The notes under the pieces were generated by a model. That model ran no database searches, had not been told where the DNA came from, and worked only from the letters and a program-made list of their open reading frames with translations. From assembly GCF_011174675.1 (NCBI RefSeq), contig NZ_JAANIG010000002.1, positions 62,001 through 126,000 on the forward strand: 64,000 bases of DNA, given 5' to 3'. The position numbers and the translations under genes are program-made. The stretch is from Perlabentimonas gracilis. GTDB lineage: Bacteria > Bacteroidota > Bacteroidia > Bacteroidales > Tenuifilaceae. Shown piece after piece: positions 12,975 through 64,000 of this stretch. Every line of letters starts with the position of its first letter. Position 1 is the first letter of the stretch.

Positions 12975-12993
12975 GGGTTTATATTAGGTTGGC

Positions 12994-13055
12994 TGACCCG
13001 CCAGTGGCCTGTCTACCCTGCCTACCGGCAGGCGGCAGGTAGAGCGGGCAGGTTG
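12994..13055 (+). repeat. 62-bp interspersed GC-rich repeat, copy A
   Basis: Identical over all 62 positions to copies B (34908-34969, inverted) and C (54729-54790). It contains a near-perfect stem (CTACCCTGCC / GGCAGGTAG) and is flanked on the right by GGTTGATTGGTTGA-type tetranucleotide sequence. Confidence 0.92.
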
Positions 13056-13192
13056 GTTGATTGGTTGACCCTGCCTTTGCCGGCAGGCAGGCTGACAGGG
13101 TGCGAAGCACCTGTCGGCGTTTAAAAGGCTGATTGATTGGTGTGTTAGCAGACTCCCAGCCAGTTGACAGATAGATTGAACGTTCCCGAACC

Positions 13193-34875: not shown

Positions 34876-34907
34876 CCTGCAAAGGCAGGGTCATTCAACC
34901 AACCAAC

Positions 34908-34969
34908 CAACCTGCCCGCTCTACCTGCCGCCTGCCGGTAGGCAGGGTAGACAGGCCACTGGCGGGTCA
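34908..34969 (-). repeat. 62-bp interspersed GC-rich repeat, copy B (inverted)
   Basis: The reverse complement is identical to copies A and C. In its own orientation it is followed, as in copy A, by GGTTGGTTG-type sequence and then TGACCCTGCCTTTGC. Confidence 0.92.
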
Positions 34970-35101
34970 ACCAATCATTCTACCCTATCCCCATTAATCC
35001 TTTTGTTTGCCAATCGTCTAATAATGCTGTGATTCTATTTGGCTTTGCCAACATTTTTTTGCAAATTGGCGTGATTTTTTCAGTAAAATTAACCTAACAG
35101 T

Positions 35102-50043: not shown

Positions 50044-50577
50044 ATGAACATTCGGTTCACGCTACTTTTCGCCATACTGCTCCTGCTGCTTGCTTGGGCA
50101 TGTAAGAAAACTGAGGTTGACGAGGAGTTCGAAGTTGATCGTAGCGTGATAGGCGAGTGGTACTCATCACGCGGCAATCTTTCTGAAATTATGAAGGAGG
50201 TTGATGGGGTAGATTCTGTCTTTTTGGTGTTTCGCACTGACTCCACATACTACATCGAAACCTTTGGTGAACTATATACTACCAACCGATTGGTGATTAA
50301 AACCTACCAGGGAAAATATCGCTACTTTGCTTCTGATTTTGGCGATATTCATACAATCTCGCTCGACCAGTCAAAACCTAGCGTGCTGGCGTTGGAGGGG
50401 ATTTTTGAGGTTACAACCACATCGCCGCCCTACACTATGCACTTCGAAGTGCTTCAGGTGGAGCCTTTCGTTAATCTATATCCACCTACCCCCGAAGGAG
50501 GTTTTGGTAGCTCCGATGGTGGTTCATTCCAGAATAGGAATATTCAAAAGTATGTGAAGATAAAGAACCTAGAATAG
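50044..50577 (+). CDS. lipocalin-like hypothetical lipoprotein
   Basis: A 177-residue exported lipoprotein with lipobox LAWAC (Cys20). After it comes an acidic stretch and then VIGEWYSSRG, a start often seen in lipocalin-like domains of Bacteroidota (GxW near the first strand). The rest is beta-strand-rich. No function is assigned. The start is the ATG at 50044; 12 further codons upstream give no signal peptide improvement. It converges with the small gene at 50585. Confidence 0.75.
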   Translation: MNIRFTLLFAILLLLLAWACKKTEVDEEFEVDRSVIGEWYSSRGNLSEIMKEVDGVDSVFLVFRTDSTYYIETFGELYTTNRLVIKTYQGKYRYFASDFGDIHTISLDQSKPSVLALEGIFEVTTTSPPYTMHFEVLQVEPFVNLYPPTPEGGFGSSDGGSFQNRNIQKYVKIKNLE

Positions 50578-50584
50578 GTTCGTG

Positions 50585-50800
50585 TTAGCTGAAACGCCTT
50601 TTACGCTTCATAAAAACTCTTTCTCGCTGGTTGAAAATGGAGCCGTTTTTAGTAAGCCAGTAAATAATTGGGCCCAATATAGGTGGTATAAAAGCCAGTA
50701 ACACCCTTAACCCTCCATTTCTATTCCTTAAGTACCTCAGCGCATCGTATATGGTGAAGATATGAAGGGCTATCACCAGTATGTAGGATAAGTTTTCCAT
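50585..50800 (-). CDS. small two-helix membrane protein (PLDc_N-like)
   Basis: A 71-residue protein with two membrane helices (about 4-20 and 32-49) and a strongly basic tail (ending FMKRKRRFS). The pattern, with PPILGPIIYWLTK in helix 2, resembles the PLDc_N-type short domain found at the N-terminus of cardiolipin synthases and as stand-alone proteins. Function is unknown. It is short but has good membrane-protein composition. Confidence 0.6.
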   Translation of the reverse strand: MENLSYILVIALHIFTIYDALRYLRNRNGGLRVLLAFIPPILGPIIYWLTKNGSIFNQRERVFMKRKRRFS

Positions 50801-51114
50801 AATTCTTCTCTAAGCTTATTGTTTCTTCTTGTTAGTTTTCATCGCATATGTTGATGATAAAAGTAGAAAAAGTATTGTGTCTTCGCAAGATTTTATCCTT
50901 CTATTCATATTATTAGCTATGAATAATAAATCATATCCCATATGCAGTACCTCATTGGTATTGTTGATAGTTGCTGTTTATTAGGGTTTGTTATGTGAGT
51001 GAAAATTTTTCACCCCTTTGAACCGTGAATCCATTAACATTTTAAAACTTCTATTGTTATCATATTCTGATAATCAATAATAGTTTGCCAATACTGCATA
51101 AGCATTTTAAAGAT
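50801..51114. promoter_or_regulatory. regulatory gap upstream of the leucine/mevalonate block
   Basis: A 314-bp AT-rich gap with no gene seen. Two dyads stand out: GTGAAAA-T-TTTTCAC (50999-51013, perfect) and TATTATT-N7-AATAATA (50908-50928). No clear TAnnTTTG box was found, so the promoter is not located. Confidence 0.4.
50999..51013. promoter_or_regulatory. 15-bp perfect dyad, candidate operator
   Basis: A 7-bp inverted repeat GTGAAAA/TTTTCAC around a single T, about 100 bp before the carboxyltransferase start. Its size suits a dimeric repressor site; there is no T-tail context of a terminator for the opposite gene. Confidence 0.35.
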
Positions 51115-52707
51115 ATGAGCGATAGCGGCACGGTAATACCGTCAAAAGTTGATACTTCATCAAAGCAATATGCCAAAAACCTCAACGATACTTCGCAAAT
51201 TATCGAAGATTTCAGGGCTCGGCTTATGGCTACGTTAAATCGAACAACCGATCCTTATGTGCTTAAGCACAAGGAGAAGGGTAAGCTGACCGTTGGTGAG
51301 CGTATAAACACCCTTGTCGATGAGGGTACGCCCTTCTTCGAGCTGTCGGCCTTAGCCGCCAATGGGATGTACGAGAACAAGTTTCATTCGGCCGGAATTG
51401 TAACTGGAATCGGAATTATTCAAGGGGTTGAAACCATGATAATTGCCAACGACCCCACGGTTAAAGGCGGAACCTATGTTAAGGAAACCATTAAAAAGCA
51501 TCTAAGAGCCCAAGAGATAGCGCTCGATAATCACTTACCCTGTGTTTATGTGGTTGAGTCGGGAGGAATATTTTTGCCCGAACAGGCCAATGTTTTTGCC
51601 GATCACGATCACTTTGGTAAAATCTTTTATAATCAGGCTCGACTGTCGGCTGCAGGTATTCCTCAGGTTGCAATGGTAATGGGCTCCTGCACAGCTGGGG
51701 GGGCTTATATTCCAGCAATGAGCGACGAGACCATCATTGTCGATAAGCAGGGAACCATTTTTCTGGCTGGCCCACCTTTGGTTAAGTCTGCCATTGGCGA
51801 GGAGGTTTCTGCCGAGGAGCTGGGGGGCGCATATGCTCATACACATATATCTGGAGTGGCCGATCACTTAGCCCGTTCCGAGGAGGAGGCCATACAGATT
51901 TGTCGAAATATCTTCGAGCATCTTCCCAAACCCCAAAAATCTTTCGTTGGCAATGGGCAGTACGAAAATCCGCTTTATCCTTCTGAGGAATTGTACGGAA
52001 TTATTCACGATCAAAGTTCGCGATGGATTGACCCTTACGAGATTATTGCTAGGCTGGTTGATGGTAGCCAATTCCAGGAGTTTAAGCCAACCTATGGCAC
52101 AACGCTGGTTACCGGGTATGCCAAAATAATGGGCCAAACGGTGGGTATTCTTGCCAACAATGGTATTCTATTCTCCGAGTCGTCACTTAAGGGAACCCAT
52201 TTTATTCAGATGTGCAGTATTCGCAAAATACCACTTCTCTTCTTACATAATATCACCGGATTTATGGTGGGTAAGGATGCCGAGCACGGTGGCATTGCCA
52301 AGGATGGTGCAAAAATGGTTCACGCTGTGGCCAATGCTAATGTCCCTAAAATCACCATAATATTTGGGCGCTCCCACGGTGCAGGTAATTACGCTATGGC
52401 TGGCAGGGCCTATAAACCCAACCTGCTGCTTACTTGGCCCAACTCCAAAATCTCCGTAATGGGCGGTACTCAGGCAGCCGAGGTGTTAGGCACCGTTAAA
52501 CAAAGGGATTCGGTTGATATTGAAAGTTTTAAAAAGGAGATTTACCAGCGTTACGAGGATGAGGCCTCGGCCTATTTTGCCACGGCTCGCCTGTGGGACG
52601 ATGGAATTATCGACCCCGTTGACACCCGCAGCTGGATTGCCATGGGGCTTTCCATTGCAGTTAACAAGCCCACTCCCGACTATAAACCTGGTGTTTACCG
52701 AATGTAA
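51115..52707 (+). CDS. 3-methylcrotonyl-CoA carboxylase beta-type carboxyltransferase
   Basis: A 530-residue carboxyltransferase. GSCTAGGAYIPAMSDE and GTIFLAGPPLVKSAIGEEVSAEELGG (seen as FLAGPPLVK and EEVSAEELGG) are typical of the methylcrotonyl/geranyl-CoA carboxylase beta subunit (LiuB/AtuC), and differ from the MmdA-type enzyme at 23879. The reaction carboxylates 3-methylcrotonyl-CoA to 3-methylglutaconyl-CoA in leucine breakdown. The biotin-carboxylase alpha subunit is not adjacent. The LiuC-like hydratase starts 6 bp downstream. The start is the ATG at 51115; a TTG start at 51085 is less likely. Confidence 0.87.
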   Translation: MSDSGTVIPSKVDTSSKQYAKNLNDTSQIIEDFRARLMATLNRTTDPYVLKHKEKGKLTVGERINTLVDEGTPFFELSALAANGMYENKFHSAGIVTGIGIIQGVETMIIANDPTVKGGTYVKETIKKHLRAQEIALDNHLPCVYVVESGGIFLPEQANVFADHDHFGKIFYNQARLSAAGIPQVAMVMGSCTAGGAYIPAMSDETIIVDKQGTIFLAGPPLVKSAIGEEVSAEELGGAYAHTHISGVADHLARSEEEAIQICRNIFEHLPKPQKSFVGNGQYENPLYPSEELYGIIHDQSSRWIDPYEIIARLVDGSQFQEFKPTYGTTLVTGYAKIMGQTVGILANNGILFSESSLKGTHFIQMCSIRKIPLLFLHNITGFMVGKDAEHGGIAKDGAKMVHAVANANVPKITIIFGRSHGAGNYAMAGRAYKPNLLLTWPNSKISVMGGTQAAEVLGTVKQRDSVDIESFKKEIYQRYEDEASAYFATARLWDDGIIDPVDTRSWIAMGLSIAVNKPTPDYKPGVYRM

Positions 52708-52713
52708 ATCGAT

Positions 52714-53499
52714 ATGAATACCTATAGTAATATTCAACTTGATATTAGCGAGGGAGTGGCCACAATTTGGCTTAACCGACCCGATGTGCACAATGCCATA
52801 AGCATCCAAATGCTTGAGGAGATAAACCATTGCTTTACCGAATTGGACAAGAATGGCAGCATTCGAGCTATTGTGTTACGCGGCAAGGGGAAATCGTTTA
52901 GCGCTGGAGCCGATTTAAAGCTTATGCTCCAGGCCAGCAAGATGGGGTACGATGAGAATTTGGAGGATGGTCTGAAGTGGGCAAATTGCTTAGCTACAAT
53001 ATACGGCAGTTCAAAACCCGTTGTTGGTATAGCAACGGGTAATGTTTACGGTGGAGGTAACGGCTTACTCGCTGCTTGCGATATGGTTATTGCTGAGGAT
53101 AATGTAGTGTTCTCCTTCGCCGAGGTTAAGCTGGGTATCGCGCCATCAACAATTCTTCCCTATATTTTAAAGAGGCTAAAACTATCAACAGCAAAGTATT
53201 TGATGTTTACAGGTAAACGGTTTTCTGCACAGGAGGCTTTTGATTATGGTTTTGTTGATTTTGCAGTTTCTGCTCAGCAAGTGGAGCCTTTACTTGACTC
53301 GATAGTTAGTGATGTTCTAAAAGCATCTCCACAGGGTATTAAGGAGATTAAGGTGCTAATTAAAAAATTGAACTCAACATCAACACCTGAAGAGATTATG
53401 GAGATTACTGCATCATCCATTGCAAGATTAAAAACATCTGATGAGGCCATTGAGGGAATATCAGCTTTTTTAGAAAAACGAAAACCAAACTGGGGTTAG
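52714..53499 (+). CDS. LiuC-like 3-methylglutaconyl-CoA hydratase
   Basis: A 261-residue crotonase. The oxyanion region is AGADLKLM and GNVYGGGNGLLAACD. At the first classical catalytic Glu position stands Gly117, while the second is kept (Glu137 in FAEVKLGIAPSTILPYI). The AEVKLGI-P---I-PY stretch recalls bacterial LiuC enzymes, which hydrate 3-methylglutaconyl-CoA to HMG-CoA, and which also lack that first Glu as I recall them. It lies 6 bp after the MCC-beta gene. Substrate is inferred from this context. Confidence 0.82.
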   Translation: MNTYSNIQLDISEGVATIWLNRPDVHNAISIQMLEEINHCFTELDKNGSIRAIVLRGKGKSFSAGADLKLMLQASKMGYDENLEDGLKWANCLATIYGSSKPVVGIATGNVYGGGNGLLAACDMVIAEDNVVFSFAEVKLGIAPSTILPYILKRLKLSTAKYLMFTGKRFSAQEAFDYGFVDFAVSAQQVEPLLDSIVSDVLKASPQGIKEIKVLIKKLNSTSTPEEIMEITASSIARLKTSDEAIEGISAFLEKRKPNWG

Positions 53500-53560
53500 G
53501 ATTGTTAATTGTAGTAAGGTGAAAAGTTGAACAAGAGAATTGTATAAATTTTAATAAAAT

Positions 53561-54703
53561 ATGAACCATCCACTAATAAATGATTTTCACAACAAGCTCC
53601 GTGAGCAAGTTCGTGATTTTGCTGAGAAAGAGATAAAACCATTGGCTCAAGAGCTCGATGACCGAGGCGAATTTTCAGCCGAACTAACCCGCAAGATGGG
53701 TAAGTTAGGCTTATTCGGAATGACCCTTCCCGAGGAATATGGCGGACGCAATCTCGATACACTATCGTATATAATTGCTGTTGAGGAGTTAGCTCGGGTC
53801 GATAGTTCGCAGGCTGCCACCATGGCCGCGCATAACTCGTTGGGCATCGCACCAATTTACAAGTACGGCTCTGCTGAGCAGAAGATTAGGTTGTTGCCTA
53901 AGCTTGTAACTGGCGAAAATATCTGGGCATTTGGCCTAACCGAGCCCAATGCAGGTTCCGATGCCCGTGCTGTTGAAACATCGGCAGTGCATAACGGCAA
54001 CCAATGGGTTATAAATGGGCAAAAGGTATTTATTACTAACTCAGCCTCGGAGTTGTCGATGGGTATTACCCTTTTGGCAAATACAGGTCAGGATTCAAAC
54101 AACAAGGAGTTTTCTACAATTCTGGTCGAAAGGGAGCAGTCGGAGTACCTAGCCGAACCCATAACCAACAAAATGGTTTGGCGTGCTGCCGATACCGGCC
54201 GACTTACCTTCCGCAATACCTTAGCGCCAAAGGAGAACCTGTTGGGTGAACAGGGTAAGGGAATGCGGTATATGCTCGAAACCCTCGATTCTGGTAGGCT
54301 TTCAATTGCAGCTGTGGGATTAGGTTTGGCTCAAGGTGCGTACGAAATGGCCAAAGCCTATGCCGGTGTTCGCAAACAGTTTGGCAAAACGCTATTGCAC
54401 ATTCCAGCCATTTCCGATAAGCTGGCCGATATGGATATTAAGTTGGAGTTGGCAAGGAACTACCTTTACTATAGTTGCTGGCTTAAGGATAATAATTTAC
54501 CCTTTAAAAAACAGGCTGCTATAGTGAAGCTGTACACCTCGGAAATTGCCAAGCAGATATCCGACGAGGCAGTTCAGGTTTTTGGTGCTTACGGCCTATT
54601 TAAGGATAACGATGTGGAGCGATTTTTCCGCGATCAGCGTATCCTGGGCATTGGCGAGGGTACATCAGAAATACTAAAGCTGGTTATTGGTAGGAGTTTG
54701 TAG
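53561..54703 (+). CDS. acyl-CoA dehydrogenase (short/branched-chain type)
   Basis: A 380-residue FAD-dependent acyl-CoA dehydrogenase. LTEPNAGSDA and WVINGQKVFITN are the FAD-domain signatures, RKQFGKTL and RDQRILGIGEGTSEIL the C-terminal ones. The catalytic Glu is at the canonical short-chain position (Glu366 in GEGTSE). Isovaleryl-CoA dehydrogenases usually have Ala or Gly there and take the base from elsewhere. Context (MCC-beta, LiuC) points to isovaleryl-CoA, but this residue favours a butyryl-, isobutyryl- or 2-methylbutyryl-type enzyme. Confidence 0.9.
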   Translation: MNHPLINDFHNKLREQVRDFAEKEIKPLAQELDDRGEFSAELTRKMGKLGLFGMTLPEEYGGRNLDTLSYIIAVEELARVDSSQAATMAAHNSLGIAPIYKYGSAEQKIRLLPKLVTGENIWAFGLTEPNAGSDARAVETSAVHNGNQWVINGQKVFITNSASELSMGITLLANTGQDSNNKEFSTILVEREQSEYLAEPITNKMVWRAADTGRLTFRNTLAPKENLLGEQGKGMRYMLETLDSGRLSIAAVGLGLAQGAYEMAKAYAGVRKQFGKTLLHIPAISDKLADMDIKLELARNYLYYSCWLKDNNLPFKKQAAIVKLYTSEIAKQISDEAVQVFGAYGLFKDNDVERFFRDQRILGIGEGTSEILKLVIGRSL

Positions 54704-54728
54704 ATGCTATTCAATTATAGTGATTGAT

Positions 54729-54790
54729 TGACCCGCCAGTGGCCTGTCTACCCTGCCTACCGGCAGGCGGCAGGTAGAGCGGGCAGGTTG
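54729..54790 (+). repeat. 62-bp interspersed GC-rich repeat, copy C
   Basis: Identical to copies A and B. Flanked on both sides by GATTGATT sequence (54721-54728 and after 54790). It sits in the 168-bp gap between the acyl-CoA dehydrogenase and HMG-CoA reductase genes. Confidence 0.92.
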
Positions 54791-54871
54791 ATTGATTTTG
54801 CTTTGACAACTGCTACGTGCTTATTGCCAACTTTATAATGATTGTGTGAATGTCTTTGCCAACTAAAAACA

Positions 54872-56179
54872 ATGGAAAAATCAAACTACATAAATGGCTA
54901 TTCAAAGCTAACCAACGAAGCGAAGGTTGATTCGATGGCCCATTTTCTGGGAAAAACTGTGGATGATTTCTCGATTTTAAATCATTTTAAACTTCCTGAT
55001 TCTAACCTTCAGGCTAGGCTTGAGGAGATTAGCGAGAATGTGCTGTCGAACTATATGCTACCCTACAGCATTGCGCCAAATTTTCTGGTCAACGGAAAGC
55101 ACTATCTCGTTCCAATGGTTATTGAGGAGAGTTCGGTAGTAGCCGCTGCATCGGCAGCTGCCAAGTTTTGGTTTAGTAGGGGTGGGTTTACATCAAAAGT
55201 TGTTGGCACAACAAAGGTGGGACAGGTGCACTTTAAGTGGCTCGGTAATGGCTCGGTATTAAACCAACATTTTCCCAAAATCAAAGATATTTTGATAAAC
55301 GATTCGGAGTATCTACTTGCCAATATGAAGAAGCGTAATGGTGGCATAACGGGAATCGAACTACTAGATTTTACTCACCAACTACCCAATTACTATCAAA
55401 TCAGGGTGAGTTTCGAAACCGCCGATGCTATGGGCGCCAACATAATAAACTCGGTACTCGAGGAGATGGCGCAATCGTTAAAACAATATTTTGCAGATAA
55501 TTTCGAAGGTGCTGAGGCCGATTGCGAAATTGTGATGGCAATCCTCTCGAACCATACACCCGAAAGCCTTGTGGAGTGTTACGTGGAATGTGATATTGAG
55601 GGACTAGCCGAGGTGTCGGGTAGTCTATTGCCAGCCGATTACGCCCTAAAGTTTAAAACAGCTGTTGATATTGCCAATATAGATATCTACAGGGCAACCA
55701 CCCACAATAAGGGGATTTACAACGGTATCGATGCCGTAGCGCTTGCCACAGGCAACGATTTTAGGGCGGTTGAGGCTTGCGGCCATTCCTACGCATCGCG
55801 CGATGGACATTACAAAAGTTTAACCACAGTTGATATCGATAATGGTAAGTTCCGGTATACCCTGCGAATTCCAATGGCCTTAGGCACTGTAGGAGGATTA
55901 ACCACAATGCATCCGCTGGCCAAGCTATCGCTCGAAATTCTGGGAAATCCTTCGGCTCGTGAATTAATGGAAATCACTGCCGCCGCCGGATTAGCCAACA
56001 CGTTTTCGGCTGTGCGTGCGCTAACCACTTCAGGAATTCAGAAGGGGCATATGCGGTTCCATCTTAATAATAGTTTAAACACTCTTGGTGCAACCGAGCA
56101 GCAAAAGCTACAGGCTACTAAATTTTTTAAAGATAAAAAGGTATCGCACAAGGCTGTGCAGGATTTTTTAGGAAAATAA
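54872..56179 (+). CDS. mvaA: hydroxymethylglutaryl-CoA reductase, class II
   Basis: A 435-residue HMG-CoA reductase of the bacterial class II form. VIEESSVVAAASAAAKFW (catalytic Glu), DAMGANIINSV, THNKGIYNGIDAVALATGNDFRA (seen as NKGIYNGIDAV and ATGND) and GHMRFH (catalytic His) are present. The enzyme converts HMG-CoA and NAD(P)H to mevalonate, or the reverse. The start is the ATG at 54872. The GYDIA-type kinase follows after 9 bp. Class II enzymes serve in both catabolic and biosynthetic roles; the downstream kinases argue for synthesis here. Confidence 0.95.
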   Translation: MEKSNYINGYSKLTNEAKVDSMAHFLGKTVDDFSILNHFKLPDSNLQARLEEISENVLSNYMLPYSIAPNFLVNGKHYLVPMVIEESSVVAAASAAAKFWFSRGGFTSKVVGTTKVGQVHFKWLGNGSVLNQHFPKIKDILINDSEYLLANMKKRNGGITGIELLDFTHQLPNYYQIRVSFETADAMGANIINSVLEEMAQSLKQYFADNFEGAEADCEIVMAILSNHTPESLVECYVECDIEGLAEVSGSLLPADYALKFKTAVDIANIDIYRATTHNKGIYNGIDAVALATGNDFRAVEACGHSYASRDGHYKSLTTVDIDNGKFRYTLRIPMALGTVGGLTTMHPLAKLSLEILGNPSARELMEITAAAGLANTFSAVRALTTSGIQKGHMRFHLNNSLNTLGATEQQKLQATKFFKDKKVSHKAVQDFLGK

Positions 56180-56188
56180 AGTTTATCA

Positions 56189-57103
56189 ATGCCCAATCAA
56201 TTTTATTCCCACGGCAAGTTGCTAATCACCGGCGAGTACTTTGTCCTCATCGGTGCAACGGCTTTTGCCATTCCCCTAAAACTTGGTCAAGGAATGGATA
56301 TGGAATTAGTTGATGATGGGAAAAATTTGATTTACTGGTCAACTGCTGTAATAGGAAAGCTTTGGTTCACTGCAATTTTTTCAAAGGCCGATATAAGTAC
56401 TGTTGAAACAAACAACCGCAAATCGTCGGAGTTTATCAAGAAACTTCTAAGGTTTTTGAAAGATAAAAGTGCAGCATTAAACGGTTCACAATCGGTTAGT
56501 ATTTCGGCAAATGTTGAGTTCCCAATGGAATGGGGTTTTGGCAGTAGCTCCACGCTAATTGCCAACTTGGCCCAGTGGGCCAAAATTAATCCCTACGAGT
56601 TGCTGTTTGCCACTACCAATGGTTCGGGATACGATGTGGCTTGCGCTATGTCTGATAGTCCTATTCTCTACAGAAACTCCCCAAAGCCAGAGGTTGTTAG
56701 GGTTGATTTTAATCCAAACTTCCTCAATAAAATCTACTTTATCTACCTTGGCCAAAAGCAGAACTCGTCAGCGAGTGTCGAAAAGCTTGGGCAAAAAGTT
56801 AAAGGGCGAAACGTTGAGGCCGATAGAATTTCGGACATATCAAAAAGAATTGTCAAATCTGCTTCGCTCCGCGAGTTTGAGGCTTTGGTTGATAAGCACG
56901 AGCAGATTGTGGCCGAAACGTTGGGTTTGGAACCAGTAAAACGGAAAATGTTTCCCGATTTCGATGGCTCAGTAAAGTCGCTGGGAGCATGGGGTGGCGA
57001 TTTTATTATGGCAACCCACAGCGGCGAGGCCAGCTATGTTTACAGCTATTTTAAAGCAAAGGGTTTGGATGTAATCTTACCCTATTACGATATTGCGCTA
57101 TGA
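56189..57103 (+). CDS. GYDIA-family GHMP kinase, probable phosphomevalonate kinase
   Basis: A 304-residue GHMP kinase of the GYDIA type. Motif 1 is GKLLITGEYFVL (9-20), the ATP loop is GFGSSSTLIA (116-125), then GSGYDVACAM (145-154), and motif 3 is GAWGGDF (266-272). The motif 1 GEY form and the Asp closing motif 3 (GGD) resemble phosphomevalonate kinases (GAGGGDC), whereas mevalonate kinases have GAGGGG. It overlaps the diphosphomevalonate decarboxylase start (ATGA-type, 57100-57103). The assignment is an inference from motif and operon; the family is often left unnamed in annotation. Confidence 0.8.
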   Translation: MPNQFYSHGKLLITGEYFVLIGATAFAIPLKLGQGMDMELVDDGKNLIYWSTAVIGKLWFTAIFSKADISTVETNNRKSSEFIKKLLRFLKDKSAALNGSQSVSISANVEFPMEWGFGSSSTLIANLAQWAKINPYELLFATTNGSGYDVACAMSDSPILYRNSPKPEVVRVDFNPNFLNKIYFIYLGQKQNSSASVEKLGQKVKGRNVEADRISDISKRIVKSASLREFEALVDKHEQIVAETLGLEPVKRKMFPDFDGSVKSLGAWGGDFIMATHSGEASYVYSYFKAKGLDVILPYYDIAL

Positions 57104-58206
57104 ATGAGAATAAGTTTACCAGAAAATACTTGCAAGATGCAAAGCATCTTATCGACCTAAATTCGCCTTACAGTGGTAGGGTTAGTTGGGAAAGCCCATC
57201 GAATATTGCGTTGGTAAAGTACTGGGGCAAGTACGGCGACCAGCTACCGCAAAACCCTTCGCTTAGCTTTACGCTAAAACATTCCAAAACCAAAACTAGT
57301 ATTGATTATCAACATAGAGATGGTAACCAGTCGAATGTAGATTTTTACTTTGAGGGGAAACGAAACGAAAAGTTCGAGGCAAAGATTTCTCGGTATATCG
57401 AGAAAATATCGGCATATATGCCTTTTCTTAGCCAGTTGCAGCTCAAAATCGATAGTGCAAATACGTTCCCACATTCCGCTGGAATTGCCTCATCGGCCTC
57501 GTCGTTTAGCGCCTTGGCGCTATGTCTGTGCAGTATGGAAAAGAAATATTTTGGAACCCTACAATCCGATGATGAGTTTTACCAGAAAGCTTCGTTTCTG
57601 GCGCGCTTGGGTTCGGGCAGCGCTTGCCGTTCAACCTACGGAAAACTTGCCCTGTGGGGCAAAACCGATGCTATCTCTAATTCATCGAACGAGGTAGCCA
57701 TTCCTGTTGATAATGGCATAAACCCTGTGTTCAAATCCTACCACGATGCTATTTTAATTATCGATTCGGGACAAAAGGAGCTATCGAGTACTGGTGGTCA
57801 TGCGTTAATGGAAAATCATAAGTATGCTTACACCCGATACAATCAGGCGCAGGAGAATCTAAAATCGATTTTAGCCCATTTGCAAAGTGGCAATGAGGCT
57901 GGTTTTGCTCAGGTGGTGGAGAATGAGGCCATGTCGTTGCACGCTCTGATGATGTCATCAATCCCCTCGGTAGTTCTCTTAAAACCCAATACGCTTGTGG
58001 CAATTGAGCGACTAAAAGAATTTCGGCTAAAGGAAAATATCAACTTTACTTTTACGCTTGATGCTGGTCCCAATATTCATATACTGTATCCCCAATCAGT
58101 GTGCGAGCAGATGGTTCGTTTTATCGAAAGTAACCTTTTAAACCTTTGCGAAAATGGCCGGTGGATTGACGATGAGATTTCCGTTGGCCCAACGCAAATT
58201 GAATAG
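57100..58206 (+). CDS. mvaD: diphosphomevalonate decarboxylase
   Basis: A 368-residue GHMP-fold decarboxylase turning mevalonate 5-diphosphate into isopentenyl diphosphate. NIALVKYWGKYGDQLPQNPSLS (seen as IALVKYWGK and NPSLS), the ATP loop SAGIASSASSFSALA, GSACRSTYGKLALW and the catalytic Asp321 in FTLDAGPN agree with the family. A 28-residue N-terminal lead before the core is slightly longer than usual. It overlaps the gene before and ends 2 bp before mevalonate kinase. Confidence 0.94.
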   Translation: MNENKFTRKYLQDAKHLIDLNSPYSGRVSWESPSNIALVKYWGKYGDQLPQNPSLSFTLKHSKTKTSIDYQHRDGNQSNVDFYFEGKRNEKFEAKISRYIEKISAYMPFLSQLQLKIDSANTFPHSAGIASSASSFSALALCLCSMEKKYFGTLQSDDEFYQKASFLARLGSGSACRSTYGKLALWGKTDAISNSSNEVAIPVDNGINPVFKSYHDAILIIDSGQKELSSTGGHALMENHKYAYTRYNQAQENLKSILAHLQSGNEAGFAQVVENEAMSLHALMMSSIPSVVLLKPNTLVAIERLKEFRLKENINFTFTLDAGPNIHILYPQSVCEQMVRFIESNLLNLCENGRWIDDEISVGPTQIE

Positions 58207-58208
58207 CA

Positions 58209-59093
58209 ATGAGGTTTAGCTCCAAAATATTACTGTTTGGCGAGTACTCCGTACTGCAAGGTTCGGATGCTTTGCTTATACCATTCCCTGAATACTCGGG
58301 TTTCTTCGATTTTTACAGCGATTATAGTAACCCCAACAGCGATGAGGTTAAATCGAACCAGATTCTAATGGGATTTATGGATTATATCCAAAAATATGAA
58401 GTAAAAGGCAATATTGATGTTGAGCGATTTAGCCGCGATTTATCCAGCGGGCTTTACTTTAAATCAAATATTCCTTTGGGTTACGGGGTTGGTAGTTCTG
58501 GCGCGCTGGTTGCCGCGTTTTACCACCAATATTTTCAGCCTAATGAAGATGACCTCTTAGTGACCAAACAAAACCTGGCCACTTTAGAGTCCTATTTTCA
58601 CGGGAGCAGTTCGGGTCTTGATCCTTTGGTTAGCTATATTAACAAACCAATTTTACAAACAAATGGTAGAGTTAATGCTCTCGATTTTAAAAACTTCGGA
58701 ATTAAACCCTTTCTTATTGATACCGGGATTAGTCGTTCAACAGCCGATTTTGTGAGTGTCTTTAACCATAAAGTTAGTGACCTTGAATTTAAGATACTGA
58801 TAAAAAATGATTTGGTTAGATTGAGTAACCTCGCGTTAAATCTGTTTTTGAGTGGCCAAAAGTCTGAGTTTTTTGCTGTTTTAAAGGAACTTTCTCAATT
58901 TCAGCTAACCCATCTAAATGAAATGATACTGCCCGAGTATCAGTCGATATGGAAGGATGGAATTGAATCCGAAGACTATCATCTGAAATTGTGTGGGGCT
59001 GGGGGAGGTGGATTTTTGCTTGGCTTTGCCAGGAATGAGAATGCTGTTGATTATTTAAAGAAGAAATATCAACTTAGAATTTCATCTGTTTAA
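58209..59093 (+). CDS. mvk: mevalonate kinase
   Basis: A 294-residue GHMP kinase. Motif 1 KILLFGEYSVLQG, the ATP loop PLGYGVGSSGALVAA (89-103), HGSSSGLDPLVS (131-142, with the catalytic Asp138) and CGAGGGGFLLGF near the C-terminus are mevalonate-kinase-like; Gly follows the motif 3 glycines, unlike the proposed phosphomevalonate kinase. It phosphorylates mevalonate at C5 using ATP. It is the last of the HMGR-PMK-MVD-MK run; a 186-bp gap follows before menI. Confidence 0.88.
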   Translation: MRFSSKILLFGEYSVLQGSDALLIPFPEYSGFFDFYSDYSNPNSDEVKSNQILMGFMDYIQKYEVKGNIDVERFSRDLSSGLYFKSNIPLGYGVGSSGALVAAFYHQYFQPNEDDLLVTKQNLATLESYFHGSSSGLDPLVSYINKPILQTNGRVNALDFKNFGIKPFLIDTGISRSTADFVSVFNHKVSDLEFKILIKNDLVRLSNLALNLFLSGQKSEFFAVLKELSQFQLTHLNEMILPEYQSIWKDGIESEDYHLKLCGAGGGGFLLGFARNENAVDYLKKKYQLRISSV

Positions 59094-59279
59094 GCATTGG
59101 GGAACTTTTCGGAATGTATGTGAGCTGTAGTTGTCTGGAAAGTCAATTTTTACGATAAAAAATTAAAATCGTAACCTGTTTAAAACCACCTTACATTTCT
59201 ATTGTTACTATCAAACTTGAGGTTTTACTAAAAGAATTGCAGTAAAAAATCTAAATTTGTCTGAATAATAGTTTTTATA

Positions 59280-59687
59280 ATGATAACAGTTAGTGAACTT
59301 AATAGCCTTTGTGCTAATACTTTGATTGAGCATTTGGGAATTGAATTTACCGAGATAGGCGAAAACGGGCTAAAAGCACGTATGCCAGTGGATAAGCGTA
59401 CTCTGCAGCCAATGGGTATTCTGCACGGTGGTGCCAGTTTGGCTTTCGCCGAGACTATTGCTGGTGCTGGATCGCTTGCATTGGTTGATGTTAGTAAATT
59501 CAATATTGTTGGTTTTCAGGTTAGCGCAAATCATATTGGCACAATTTCCGAAGGGTATGTAAACGCTCACGCCACCCTAACTCATAATGGCACACGAACC
59601 CACATTTGGGATGTTGTAATATCGGCCGATGATGGTCGCAAAATCTCTATATGCAGGGTATCTAATATGCTAGTCGAGAAGAAATAG
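59280..59687 (+). CDS. menI: hotdog-fold thioesterase, probable 1,4-dihydroxy-2-naphthoyl-CoA hydrolase
   Basis: A 135-residue 4HBT-type hotdog thioesterase. QPMGILHGGASLAFAETIAGAGS carries the usual active-site turn (seen as GILHGGASLAFAET, with the catalytic Glu). Related proteins include MenI, which frees 1,4-dihydroxy-2-naphthoate from its CoA ester, and YbdB/PaaI types. The position directly upstream of menF, menD and menB makes MenI the best fit. It opens the men gene run and lies 30 bp before menF. Confidence 0.82.
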   Translation: MITVSELNSLCANTLIEHLGIEFTEIGENGLKARMPVDKRTLQPMGILHGGASLAFAETIAGAGSLALVDVSKFNIVGFQVSANHIGTISEGYVNAHATLTHNGTRTHIWDVVISADDGRKISICRVSNMLVEKK

Positions 59688-59717
59688 CAAAAATTACCCG
59701 AAACACAGTAATTGGAA

Positions 59718-60827
59718 ATGATGAATTTTCACCAGTTTGCGCTTGAAAATAGAATTGCCTTTGTAACATATAAACTTCCCGATCTGGAGGAGGTAACCAC
59801 ATTGGTTCAATGGAAAACTGAGCCCATTGCGCTAGCTAATCTAATGGAGTTGGAGGGCAAATCGGGTTTTGTCTTTGCGCCCTTCAACATAGAATCGCAC
59901 CATCCCATCAGGCTCATTGAGCCTGATTTGGTTATTAAGGGCAATAACATTGATGAATCTTTGTTCACAATTTTCAATGATGATCTAGTTAAAGTAAAGC
60001 CCAGCACAACCAATGTTGTTTGCAGCCCAAGTGAAACTTCTCGTGAATTGTACCTTGCTAAGGTCGATGAGTTTCGCAATAAAATAAATCCTGGAAGGTT
60101 AGATAAGCTGGTGCTATCGCGAATTAGCATTGAATCTAAACCCACAAGTTTTAACCCTAGCTTACTCTTACAAGAGCTCCAACGTAGCTATCCCGATGCT
60201 TTTGTGTTTATGATTCACATTGCCGACGCTGGATTATGGATAGGTGCAAGTCCCGAACCATTACTTCAGATTAAGGATGATGTGGTATCAACCGTTTCGC
60301 TTGCCGGAACAAGGCTATATAATGGTAAAAGCATTGATATAGAGTGGGGTGCAAAGGAGTTGGAGGAGCAGGAGATTGTAACAAGATATATCGATAGAAT
60401 CCTCGAAAGTTTTCAAATTAAGCAGTATTCGAGGCAAGGCCCGCAAACAAAGCTGGCTGGAGCCGTGGAGCATCTTTTAACCCGTTTCACTTTTAGTTTA
60501 GATGCTTTGCAGGGTAAAATAGTGGAACTAATTGATGCCATTCACCCAACTCCCTCGGTGTGTGGATTACCCAAGGATGAGGCTTTAGAGATTATTCTTA
60601 AATCTGAGGAGCACGATAGGGAGTACTATACAGGTTTTTTGGGTACCTTTAACATTGAAAAGCAGTATGCTCTTTTTGTAAACCTTAGGTGTATGAGGGT
60701 CGGAGTTGATCAACTTATCTATTTCCTTGGTGCAGGAATCACTGCTGGTTCGGATCCCGAAAAGGAGTGGGAGGAGACCAATAGCAAGAAAAGAACTTTA
60801 ATGAGTATTGTTGAAACGCTAAACTAG
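59718..60827 (+). CDS. menF: isochorismate synthase
   Basis: A 369-residue chorismate-utilising enzyme that isomerises chorismate to isochorismate, the first committed step of menaquinone synthesis. IGASPEPLLQI, VSLAGTRLYNG, ELIDAIHPTPSVCGLPK and DREYYTGFLG are the conserved blocks, the last two carrying Mg-binding and active-site residues. It is shorter than E. coli MenF (431), as is common in Bacteroidota, because the N-terminal region is reduced. The start is the ATG at 59718; 59721 is an alternative. menD begins 8 bp later. Confidence 0.94.
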   Translation: MMNFHQFALENRIAFVTYKLPDLEEVTTLVQWKTEPIALANLMELEGKSGFVFAPFNIESHHPIRLIEPDLVIKGNNIDESLFTIFNDDLVKVKPSTTNVVCSPSETSRELYLAKVDEFRNKINPGRLDKLVLSRISIESKPTSFNPSLLLQELQRSYPDAFVFMIHIADAGLWIGASPEPLLQIKDDVVSTVSLAGTRLYNGKSIDIEWGAKELEEQEIVTRYIDRILESFQIKQYSRQGPQTKLAGAVEHLLTRFTFSLDALQGKIVELIDAIHPTPSVCGLPKDEALEIILKSEEHDREYYTGFLGTFNIEKQYALFVNLRCMRVGVDQLIYFLGAGITAGSDPEKEWEETNSKKRTLMSIVETLN

Positions 60828-60835
60828 AATTCATT

Positions 60836-62518
60836 ATGCCATCGGCTCTACAAGGAATTAGCGAAATATCCCATATTTGCTTGGAACATGGCATAATGCA
60901 TGCGGTCATATCATCGGGTTCGCGAAACGCACCGCTTATTCTTGCCTTTGCATCAAATGCCAATTTTAAATGCTTTAGCATTGTTGATGAACGAAGTGCA
61001 GGATATTTCGCATTGGGAATGGCTCAACAGCTTCAGAAACCTGTGGTGCTGGTCTGCACCTCGGGAACTGCAGTGGCTAACTATGCACCTGCGCTGGCCG
61101 AAGCATTTTACCTAAAGGTTCCATTGGTGGTTCTAACAGCCGACCGCCCACCCGAATGGATTGACCAAAACGATGGGCAAACTATTCGGCAGTTCGATAT
61201 TTTTAGAAATTATGTTAAGAAATCGTTTCAGATGCCTGCGAGCACCAAGGAGCAGAGCGATTTGTGGTACTTCAGACGATCACTTAACGAAGCCATTGGC
61301 TTAAGTACAATAGGCTCTCCTGGCCCAGTGCACATTAATATTCCCATTAAAGAGCCCCTTTACGATCCGCTTCCGGCAGTCGACTTGCCAATTAAACCAA
61401 TCCACACCATTTCTGGCGAAATGGAAATTGATACAGACAGTTGGCAGCAAATTTCGACTCGATGGAGGGAGGCAAAAAAAAGGTTGGTTATTTGCGGATT
61501 TTCCAATAGCAACCCTAAGTTGCAAAGCGTACTTAACCAAATGTCAAGTAACCACGAAGTGGTTGTTTTTGCCGAGAACTTATCCAATTTAGTTGGTGAT
61601 GATTTTATCTATTCACCCGATCGGTTCATGGCCTCACTCAGCACCGAGCACCTTGAGGATTTTCGCCCCGATCTGGTTGTTACCCTTGGTGGTTCCATAA
61701 TATCCAAAAGGCTTAAAAAATATCTACGTCAGTATTCCCCACAGGAACATTGGCATATCGATGAGAATGATCTGTTTATCGACACATTCCAATCGCTTAG
61801 CCTGAATATTAGAGTAAAACCCGAGAAATTTTTCAGCGAGGTTTCAAAGGCTGGCTCTCCAAATATCGAGTATTCGCAATTTGCTCAGAATGTTAAGAAG
61901 CAGAGCGAGATTCGCCATAACGAGTACCTGCAATTGGCTGGTTTTACCGATTTAACTGCTTGGGCAAGTGTTATTGATCGATTACCCTCAAATATCAATC
62001 TACATTTGGCAAACAGCACGCCAGTTCGTTACGCCCAACTTTTTAGCTCTCGACCCGATATTTCTTACTTTTCCAATCGAGGAACATCGGGAATCGATGG
62101 TTGCATCTCTACAGCAGCTGGCGCTGCAGCAGTAACAGACAAACTGAACATTCTGCTAATTGGCGATTTAGCCTTTCTTTACGATTCAAATGGGTTGTGG
62201 AACAATAATCTCCCCAAAAATCTCTGCATTATTGTAATGGATAATGGAGGCGGAAATATCTTTCGGGTTATCGATTCGGGGTCAGAGGTAGAGAAAATTC
62301 GACCTTTTGTCGAAGCACCGCATCAATTAAAAATTAAAGATCTATGCGCATCATATGGTGTTAGCTATCTGAATGCAAATAATCTTGAAACGTTAAGCGA
62401 TGCGTTAGACCAATCGTTGAAACCAAATAGCAGCGCTGTTGTTATTCATATTGAAACATCGGGCAGCACATCGGCAGAAACATACAAACAATACTTTAAA
62501 TATCTTAACCACAAGTAG
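60836..62518 (+). CDS. menD: SEPHCHC synthase MenD
   Basis: A 560-residue thiamine-diphosphate enzyme joining 2-oxoglutarate and isochorismate. [14 protein letters not shown] (N-terminal substrate domain), [25 protein letters not shown], and the C-terminal [17 protein letters not shown] and [15 protein letters not shown] are MenD signatures. Length is normal. menB starts 1 bp after the stop codon. Confidence 0.97.
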
Positions 62519-62519
62519 T

Positions 62520-63338
62520 ATGAAAAGGAACTGGACAACCCTAAAAGAGTACAGCGAGATAAAATTTGAAATCTTCGAGGGCATTGCCAAAATCACCATA
62601 AACCGTCCTAGGTATTATAATGCGTTTACTCCCGATACCGTTCAGGAGATGAAGGATGCCATGGTGATTTGCAGGGAGAACGATGATATTTTTACGGTAA
62701 TTATAACCGGAGAGGGCGATAAGGCTTTTTGTAGTGGTGGTGATCAGAATGTGAAAAGTATTGGCGGATACATTGGGAAAGATGGCGTTCCTCGCTTGAA
62801 CGTGCTCGATTTGCAACGTCAAATACGTTCGTTGCCCAAACCGGTAGTTGCAATGGTTAATGGGTATGCCATTGGTGGCGGCCACGTTCTGCATGTGGTT
62901 TGCGATTTAACCATAGCATCCGATAATGCTATTTTTGGGCAAACTGGGCCTAAGGTTGGTAGCTTCGATGCAGGTTTTGGATCATCGTACCTAGCGCGAC
63001 ACGTAGGGCAGAAGAAAGCGCGTGAGATTTGGTTCCTGTGCGACCAGTACACCGCCGAGGAGGCTCGTGAGATGGGAATGGTGAATAAGGTGGTTCCACT
63101 CGATCAGCTGGAAGATACAACTGTAGAGTGGTGCAAAAAGATGATGAAGCGTAGTCCCTTGGCACTTCGAATGATTAAGATGGGGCTTAATGCCGAGCTC
63201 GATGGTCAGGCGGGTATACAGGAGTTGGCCGGAAATGCAACCCTACTGTACTACCTTACCGAGGAGGCTCAGGAGGGCAAGCACGCCTTTCTCGAGAAGC
63301 GCGATCCCGATTTTAAAAAATATCCTAGGTTTCCATAA
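62520..63338 (+). CDS. menB: 1,4-dihydroxy-2-naphthoyl-CoA synthase
   Basis: A 272-residue crotonase-fold MenB, which closes the second ring from o-succinylbenzoyl-CoA. [51 protein letters not shown] (seen as [10 protein letters not shown]) and [17 protein letters not shown] are MenB-specific. The start is the ATG at 62520, overlapping none of menD; the longer frame begins inside menD and is rejected. Note that menC and menE, needed for its substrate, are not in the window. Confidence 0.97.
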
Positions 63339-63350
63339 CCTGTTGTAACA

Positions 63351-64000
63351 ATGAGCAAAGTTAAAGCATGGGTTGAAGCGGCGCGACTAAAAACACTGCC
63401 TTTGGCAGTGTCGAGTCCGCTTATGGGAAGTTTCCTTGCTTGGGCAGATGGAAACTTCCTGTGGAGCGTATTTATCCTTGCCACAATCACAACCCTTCTA
63501 CTGCAAGTGCTATCCAATTTTGCCAACGACTATGGCGACTTTAAAAGCGGAGCTGATAACCATAATCGAATTGGCCCACGGCGGATGGTGCAAAGCGGTG
63601 AGATATCTCCCAAACAAATGAAAAAAGGGTTGCTTATAAATATTGCTTTGGCTTTTATTTCTGGTGTGTTGCTTATTTACTTTGGAACCAAAGGAAAAGA
63701 TATTGGAGTTGTACTCTTTTTCCTTGTGTTAGGAATTATTGCCATTGTTGCCGCCATTAAATATACGGTTGGCAAAAATCCATATGGCTATAGGGGACTG
63801 GGCGATTTATTTGTGTTCCTATTCTTTGGGCTCATTGGGGTTATGGGAACCCATTTTTTGCACACAGGAACATTTAACCCTTGGCACATTATGCCAGCAG
63901 CAGCCATTGGTTTGCTTAGCACGGGGGTACTCAATTTGAATAATCTTCGCGATTACGAGAGCGATAAGGCTGCAAGCAAAAGGACAATGGTGGTGTTGCT
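63351..64000 (+). CDS. menA: 1,4-dihydroxy-2-naphthoate polyprenyltransferase, 3' part cut by window edge
   Basis: The first 216 codons of a UbiA-family integral membrane enzyme; no stop occurs before the window ends. VEAARLKTLPLAVSSPLMGS begins helix 1, and the two Asp-rich prenyl-diphosphate sites are visible: NDYGDFKSGAD and NLNNLRDYESD. MenA attaches the polyprenyl side chain to 1,4-dihydroxy-2-naphthoate. It starts 12 bp after menB in the men run. Confidence 0.94.
   Translation, partial: MSKVKAWVEAARLKTLPLAVSSPLMGSFLAWADGNFLWSVFILATITTLLLQVLSNFANDYGDFKSGADNHNRIGPRRMVQSGEISPKQMKKGLLINIALAFISGVLLIYFGTKGKDIGVVLFFLVLGIIAIVAAIKYTVGKNPYGYRGLGDLFVFLFFGLIGVMGTHFLHTGTFNPWHIMPAAAIGLLSTGVLNLNNLRDYESDKAASKRTMVVL

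Follow-up and report, generated by a model that had tools for sequence, protein, structure and literature searches.

Where does a mevalonate pathway obtain its 3-hydroxy-3-methylglutaryl-CoA (HMG-CoA) when no HMG-CoA synthase can be detected in the genome? This question is raised by a run of seven genes in a 64,000-nucleotide stretch of the genome of Perlabentimonas gracilis (G000), called here the window, which lies on the 193.6 kb contig C26 (G000:C26:62001-126000). The genome assembly comprises 4.37 Mb in 100 contigs, with a completeness of 99.93% and a contamination of 2.76%. The seven genes are arranged head to tail on the + strand (51115-59093) with all frames intact, and genes of leucine degradation type directly precede those of mevalonate type. 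Comparison with related genomes makes it fairly probable that the locus is a reduced version of an operon that some members of the order (probably Bacteroidales) have kept and that makes isopentenyl diphosphate (IPP) from isovaleryl-CoA. The features of the locus are as follows.

51115..52707, + strand: 3-methylcrotonyl-CoA carboxylase (MCC) carboxyltransferase subunit, MCC-beta, LiuB-like (PF01039, 476 bits)
52714..53499, + strand: LiuC-like 3-methylglutaconyl-CoA hydratase of the enoyl-CoA hydratase family (PF00378; substrate assigned from context)
53561..54703, + strand: acyl-CoA dehydrogenase (ACAD), probable isovaleryl-CoA dehydrogenase (PF00441, PF02770, PF02771)
54704..54871: 168-bp gap between the ACAD and HMG-CoA reductase genes, with a repeat copy at 54721-54797; the gene of type 2 IPP isomerase, Idi2, stands here in G138, a genome of the same family used for comparison, and in most linked loci
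54872..56179, + strand: HMG-CoA reductase (HMGR), class II, TIGR00532 type (270.4 bits, cut-off 259.95)
56189..57103, + strand: GYDIA family GHMP kinase, probable phosphomevalonate kinase (NF040656, 335 bits, cut-off 225)
57100..58206, + strand: diphosphomevalonate decarboxylase, MvaD (PF22700, PF18376; TIGR01240 161 bits, slightly below the cut-off of 171)
58209..59093, + strand: mevalonate kinase-like GHMP kinase, MvaK (PF00288; TIGR00549 72 bits, far below the cut-off of 163)

In the proposed route, whose direction, substrates and flux we infer, isovaleryl-CoA from leucine or from taken-up isovalerate would be converted by the ACAD to 3-methylcrotonyl-CoA, carboxylated by MCC to 3-methylglutaconyl-CoA and hydrated by LiuC to HMG-CoA. 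HMGR would then form mevalonate, and two phosphorylations (by MvaK, then by the GYDIA kinase) followed by decarboxylation through MvaD would give IPP. MCC carboxylates the gamma-methyl group of 3-methylcrotonyl-CoA, HMGR reduces the thioester carbon of HMG-CoA, which comes from isovaleryl-CoA, to the CH2OH of mevalonate, and MvaD takes off the bicarbonate-derived carboxyl group. Since the carboxyl group added by MCC would be the one removed by MvaD, the C5 skeleton of the isovaleryl group would reach IPP whole. HMG-CoA synthase would be unneeded, and HMG-CoA lyase, the usual drain, is not detected. In P. gracilis the route would run alongside the methylerythritol phosphate (MEP) pathway.

Identity of the seven genes

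An earlier note on this DNA had named all seven genes, with their coordinates and their common strand, and these calls are borne out by Pfam, NCBIfam and PDB matches. MCC-beta matches PDB chains named MCC-beta with 601 bits (8j4z) and 590 bits (3u9r), as compared to 410 bits for a geranyl-CoA carboxylase chain and at most 270 bits for most chains named as the beta subunit of propionyl-CoA carboxylase (PCC-beta); two of its top matches are titled otherwise, namely 9tps (PCC-beta, 610 bits) and 4q0g (acetyl-/propionyl-CoA carboxylase, 602 bits). Every NCBIfam match of the LiuC-like hydratase is under its cut-off, and relatives of this protein adjoin MCC-beta in leucine clusters both linked and unlinked to HMGR. 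HMGR matches PDB entry 7n7s with 447 bits, and residues E85/E86, K280, D296 and H393, which we take to be the catalytic ones, are invariant in our alignment A3.

HMGR, mevalonate kinase and diphosphomevalonate decarboxylase of the mevalonate pathway are thus all represented at the locus, MvaD and MvaK under their NCBIfam cut-offs. The GYDIA kinase gave no match in a PDB sequence search, and its structure model (predicted local distance difference test score, pLDDT, 93.6) has a GHMP kinase fold. Foldseek placed mevalonate kinases on top and the phosphomevalonate kinase 3gon 12th, and VIA-align placed the latter, from S. pneumoniae, first (Z 26.1, root-mean-square deviation 3.2 over 277 residues), in a tie with the next row (25.6). 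A role as phosphomevalonate kinase would fill the only step otherwise without an enzyme; the fold alone is no proof of function.

Recurrence of the locus and the source of HMG-CoA

We compared the locus across 247 genomes of the order, drawn evenly, and 295 genomes from elsewhere in the class. HMGR is present in 74 of the 247 order genomes, 64 of which have a completeness of 90% or more and a contamination of 5% or less; it is of class II in 66 (in G075 and G117 as fragments). A genome counts as linked when a class II HMGR has an MCC-beta or MCC-alpha gene no more than 10 kb away. The arrangement pointed out in the earlier note, leucine genes directly before mevalonate genes, recurs in 20 of the 66 class II genomes, from 14 families: 18 are linked by MCC-beta, G014 and G149 through MCC-alpha only. 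Gene-order conservation, which the note had proposed to examine, takes the form of one order with some losses, MCCb-LiuC-MCCa-ACAD-Idi2-HMGR-GYDIA-MvaD-MvaK, in the 20 linked loci and in two named loci that were read. Every step from isovaleryl-CoA to IPP is encoded at loci such as L039, L043 and L063. The departures are as follows.

Window locus: without MCCa and Idi2
L033 (G138): without MCCa
L045: without Idi2
L232 and L080 (same sequence over the probe): begin at MCCa, without Idi2
L233: begins inside MCCa, at the contig end
L227 and L230: MvaK not seen within the sequence that was read

In G228 a contig break (L234 and L235) seems to interrupt a linked locus, and the genome was treated as unlinked in the main counts and as linked in the HMGR-tree and pair analyses. 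Of the 80 named HMGR loci examined (the best of 585), four have a close ACAD (61-66% identity) ahead of HMGR: two Ancylomarina genomes, one of Prolixibacteraceae and the Bacteroidales locus L080, which repeats L232 over the probe used and is not an independent case. In the two Ancylomarina genomes ACAD-Idi2-HMGR-GYDIA-MvaD-MvaK stand side by side. Ancylomarina euxina belongs to Marinilabiliales in the NCBI taxonomy. Linkage requires 4-5 changes on the HMGR tree (4 with 57 rows) and 2 on the ACAD tree (42 rows). The window HMGR is nearer to unlinked HMGRs than to several linked ones, which had hinted at a separate origin of linkage in this family; the idea was dropped in view of the few changes on both trees.

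Some further loci were observed in passing. The MCC-beta of one linked locus (G131:C72:5216-6811) has one in-frame TAG. Bacteroidota-like HMGR loci occur in records labelled Bacteriovoracaceae, Chlorobiota or Thermoanaerobaculia (L085, L091, L096, L108, L079, L134), either by gene transfer or as mislabelled bins. A second, long HMGR type with frames of 745-802 amino acids (aa) is seen at L054, L055 and others; at L054 one protein joins an HMGR domain with an APH-like phosphotransferase domain.

MCC-beta is found in 61 of the 66 class II HMGR genomes and in 38 of the 181 others, a comparison uncorrected for ancestry. These counts take full-length matches of at least 758 bits and the truncated match in G233, and exclude full-length matches of 611-654 bits (G062, G104, G084, G053, G225, G204, G161) and truncated matches in G102 and G118. 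The figures become 61/66 and 40/181 when the truncated matches are counted, and 64/66 and 44/181 when all are.

HMG-CoA synthase could not be detected in the whole P. gracilis genome with PF08540, PF01154 or our own profile A4, nor could HMG-CoA lyase (NF004283, E 1e-10), so the earlier note's failure to see either enzyme in the window holds genome-wide. A4 was built from five divergent synthases of the class (Bacteroidota) because PF08540 sees divergent Bacteroidia synthases only weakly; the three source sequences that were scanned all had TIGR01835 (HMG-CoA synthase) as their best model, with scores under its cut-off. PF08540 is above cut-off in none of the 247 order genomes, and A4 at E 0.001 matches none of the 74 that bear HMGR. 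An mvaS-based pathway in close relatives, named in the note as evidence that would overturn its proposal, was sought throughout the order with these profiles and not found. Across the class, PF08540 is above cut-off in 13 of 295 genomes, with weak main matches (42-102 bits); each of these 13 also belongs to the 80 class genomes that bear HMGR. At L153-L165 the synthases of other Bacteroidia are divergent and weakly detected by PF08540, and automatic surveys may overlook them.

Among the genomes with class II HMGR, HMG-CoA lyase homologues of at least 100 bits (an 88-bit fragment in G156 not counted) are found in none of the 20 linked ones, as against 33 of the 46 unlinked ones (Fisher p 2.8e-8, ancestry-uncorrected). 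The contrast becomes 0/21 versus 33/45 with G228 as linked, and 0/20 versus 31/44 when the genomes with HMGR fragments are left out; the curated cut-off of 246 bits is reached in none of the 74 HMGR-bearing genomes. Among 19 hand-picked stretches around an unlinked MCC-beta, 11 carry a lyase-like gene, which in five (L203, L204, L209, L236, L241) directly follows the ACAD, the place held in linked loci by Idi2 or HMGR. At several leucine clusters a second lyase-like paralogue of 336 aa lies beside the ordinary one (for example L170:1501-2511).

The many lyase-like genes of the unlinked genomes, often as two paralogues, could be taken to mean that there the lyase runs in reverse and supplies HMG-CoA from acetoacetate and acetyl-CoA. 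We regard this as hardly credible, given that cleavage is the favoured direction of the enzyme and that no lyase was detected in P. gracilis, in the 20 linked genomes or in G101 and G201, described next. The analysis shows the gene identities, their order and recurrence, and the absences as far as the sensitivity of our profiles reaches. The proposal of the earlier note that HMG-CoA from leucine or isovalerate feeds isoprenoid synthesis is well supported by comparative genomics, with synthase in 0 of 74 HMGR-bearing genomes, lyase in 0 of 20 linked ones and a recurrent gene order.

Genomes that appear to lack the MEP pathway bear directly on this proposal. IspG is undetected in 15 of the 247 order genomes, nine of them HMGR-bearing, and DXR in 6 of the 80 genomes searched. 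Both are undetected in G101 and G201 (family f101), G046 and G156 (family f46) and G163, all of which bear HMGR and gave no synthase. G101 and G201 are rated 99% complete in about 20 contigs, and G156 76% complete. In G101 and G201 neither HMG-CoA synthase (A4) nor lyase was found, and both carry MCC-beta, MCC-alpha, HMGR and GYDIA. G201 also has MvaD and MvaK, about 6 kb from HMGR; these two were not found on the stretches of G101 that were read. Judged by gene content, the leucine side is the sole visible source of HMG-CoA in the two genomes. We lean only slightly towards the wider claim that part of the order (20 of 66) has a dedicated pathway from isovaleryl-CoA to IPP, that its HMGR-bearing members are generally synthase-free, and that this pathway is the sole isoprenoid source in f101 and f46. 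If true, these two families would depend on leucine or isovalerate for their cell-wall lipid carrier and quinones.

Weighing the isovaleryl-CoA route

Several observations weigh against an isovaleryl-CoA-fed pathway, in P. gracilis or more widely. Two order genomes have a weak, partial, sub-threshold PF08540 match, one of them the linked genome G197 (19.9 bits). The A4 profile gave 762-793 bits on two positive class genomes (E 3.0e-229 and 5.4e-239), a control that is not independent since both had contributed rows to A4. Of the 80 HMGR-bearing class genomes, scanned with PF08540, the other 67 are also without a match, which lowers our confidence. It may be, then, that an unrecognised synthase supplies HMG-CoA from acetyl-CoA and that the leucine genes are linked for co-regulation only. 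The absence does rest on sequence profiles, and the synthases of Bacteroidota are truly divergent, as their PF08540 scores indicate. We nevertheless consider such a synthase unlikely, as A4 scored strongly on the two class genomes and found nothing in the 74 order genomes, and the absence of lyase from all 20 linked genomes would be left unexplained.

The lyase contrast is itself weakened by ancestry. Linkage and lyase absence cluster together on the HMGR tree, and an ancestry-aware comparison of lyase loss with linkage yields 3-5 independent pairs, for which the sign test is not significant. Furthermore, G046 of family f46 retains a lyase-like gene.

The HMGR of the locus fits a model named 'degradative' (TIGR00532), which would suit the other possibility raised in the earlier note, that the set runs in reverse from HMG-CoA to isovaleryl-CoA for iso-branched fatty acids. 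Myxobacteria have an alternative isovaleryl-CoA route of this kind, which passes from HMG-CoA through the same intermediates in the opposite direction and needs HMG-CoA synthase. In P. gracilis that requirement finds no counterpart with PF08540, PF01154 or A4, and reverse flow is disfavoured because without a synthase there is no known HMG-CoA source to run back from. The loci also carry kinases and the decarboxylase, and mostly IPP isomerase too, which serve IPP synthesis. Taken together, these points make reverse flow very unlikely.

The specificity of the ACAD is a further point. It scores 310 bits against dehydrogenases of the short-chain type and 214-228 bits against chains named isovaleryl-CoA dehydrogenase, and it has the glutamate of the GEGTSE motif typical of short-chain acyl-CoA dehydrogenases; specificity for isovaleryl-CoA is probable from gene context. 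Relatives of this protein, 59-65% identical, sit in leucine clusters with lyase-like genes. The ACADs of the lyase-bearing leucine clusters that were read share the GEGTSE motif, so the order may have an isovaleryl-CoA dehydrogenase type of its own, to which this ACAD would belong.

The gap in MCC-alpha in the family of P. gracilis is the chief weak point of the isovaleryl-CoA route. A genome search for liuD, suggested in the earlier note, came back empty: fused MCC-alpha (LiuD), which all but two of the 20 linked genomes possess, was found neither at the locus nor anywhere in the G000 and G138 genomes. At E 1e-60 P. gracilis has a single biotin carboxylase match, to a frame of 519 aa on contig C11, and we infer that this protein substitutes for the absent subunit. 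It adjoins a carrier-like stretch and a carboxyltransferase of the propionyl/methylmalonyl type, which fits methylmalonyl-CoA decarboxylase alpha best (TIGR01117, 771 bits, cut-off 999).

The note had also proposed a search for MEP genes. The two that were looked for, DXR (C22:29415) and IspG (C22:41399), are present in P. gracilis and in most HMGR-bearing genomes, and they make an MEP pathway probable here. The leucine route is then not essential in P. gracilis, and what stands of the original proposal is an additional route to isoprenoids.

If MEP makes the isoprenoids, the leucine half could in this family be a relic or serve another acyl-CoA, and the isovaleryl-CoA route may still hold in other families. 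The lack of fused MCC-alpha in G000 and G138, the presence of DXR and IspG and the repeat-bearing gap where Idi2 would stand all speak for a relic. Set against this are the seven intact frames and the divergence from G138, which is mostly at third codon positions (0.56-0.67 differing, and 0.11-0.29 at second positions), a pattern as under purifying selection. MCC-beta (74%) and ACAD (76%), both of the leucine half, are the most alike of the seven genes between the two genomes; MCC-beta is 57-62% identical to that of eight other linked loci. We consider a relic rather unlikely, albeit an explanation to be taken seriously, and an active route from isovaleryl-CoA to IPP seems to us the better account of the locus.

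The presence of a repeat copy in the 168-bp gap, reported earlier, was confirmed. The repeat is about 80 bp long with a palindromic core, and the window holds three copies (12979-13062, 34901-34977 and 54721-54797), of which the two outside the gap share 93 and 96% identity with the one inside it. G138 carries Idi2 at the same place, which suggests that an isomerase gene was lost here and that the gap is no ancestral boundary of two operons. The Idi2 of L033 in G138 matches TIGR02151 with 197 bits, below the cut-off of 281. IspH of the MEP pathway yields both IPP and dimethylallyl diphosphate, and Idi2 could therefore be dispensable in P. gracilis, where MEP genes are present. A scan of 50500-59400 for promoters of the E. 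coli-type consensus, which leaves other promoter types uncovered, gave 27 sites as compared to 19.1 (standard deviation 3.8) by chance, with no + strand site inside the gap.

Downstream of MvaK, on the same strand at 59280-63998, genes for a thioesterase, a chorismate-binding enzyme, menD, menB and menA follow. The three men genes are all above their NCBIfam cut-offs, menA being interrupted by the window end. Menaquinone synthesis is thus a likely consumer of isoprenoids adjoining the locus.

Comparison with known systems

Our searches of the open-licence literature met with no description of a bacterial mevalonate pathway that is fed by leucine and free of the synthase; they led only to work on trypanosomatids, a haloarchaeal title and papers of a general kind. 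A 2026 review of the diversity of bacterial isoprenoid pathways contains, in its main text, neither 'leucine' nor words in 'bacteroid-' (PMC13001223). A paper on S. aureus mvaS mutants likewise makes no mention of leucine in its accessible text (PMC6052127). In the portions available of two other papers, MEP and mevalonate genes are reported to co-occur in Lentimicrobiaceae strains (2024, PMC11129491), and a survey scored the mevalonate pathway as present when two of its four genes were found (PMC10663253). The classical mevalonate pathway is fed with acetyl-CoA and requires HMG-CoA synthase, the enzyme for which P. gracilis gave no match. Close to the present locus stand the synthase-bearing Bacteroidia, whose HMGR is of the same class in a shared tree and in many of whose named loci GYDIA adjoins HMGR; they differ in the synthase itself, which is detected in 13 class genomes. 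The Flavobacteria-titled loci among the best 80 of 585 HMGR loci have no leucine-type ACAD match within 10 kb of HMGR.

Trypanosomatids and haloarchaea are known to carry out this chemistry; its fused, synthase-free bacterial form is the one for which we found no report. As far as the consulted sections of the paper go, Trypanosoma brucei has a direct flux from leucine through HMG-CoA to sterols, and deletion of isovaleryl-CoA dehydrogenase abolished the incorporation of leucine into sterols (PMC5993337). The likeness to the present locus is that isovaleryl-CoA dehydrogenase, MCC and the hydratase make HMG-CoA for HMGR; in contrast, HMG-CoA synthase is present as well in T. brucei, together with a thiolase bridge, as described in the same sections (PMC5993337). 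The present locus is bacterial and forms one gene run, with no synthase or lyase detected.

For Halobacterium, a study reportedly describes, by its title, the entry of leucine into isoprenoid lipid with isovaleryl-CoA dehydrogenase involved. Leucine is also cited as a partial input to haloarchaeal isoprenoid lipid in the excerpted text of PMC6155224. This route is archaeal, and Haloferax volcanii, used here as a control, has an HMG-CoA synthase match.

If the proposed route operates, some bacteria would draw isoprenoid carbon from an amino acid or fatty acid with a branched chain and not from acetyl-CoA or from pyruvate and glyceraldehyde phosphate. This would account for a mevalonate pathway that appears broken and is easily overlooked, predict a dependence on leucine or isovalerate in some anaerobes, and offer natural enzymes for a skeleton-conserving C5 route. 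The nearest likeness in gene arrangement is to the Liu pathway of leucine degradation, which has MCC-beta, LiuC, MCC-alpha and ACAD in the same order. The present loci differ from it in being without HMG-CoA lyase and in carrying, after the ACAD, Idi2 or HMGR together with the lower mevalonate genes.

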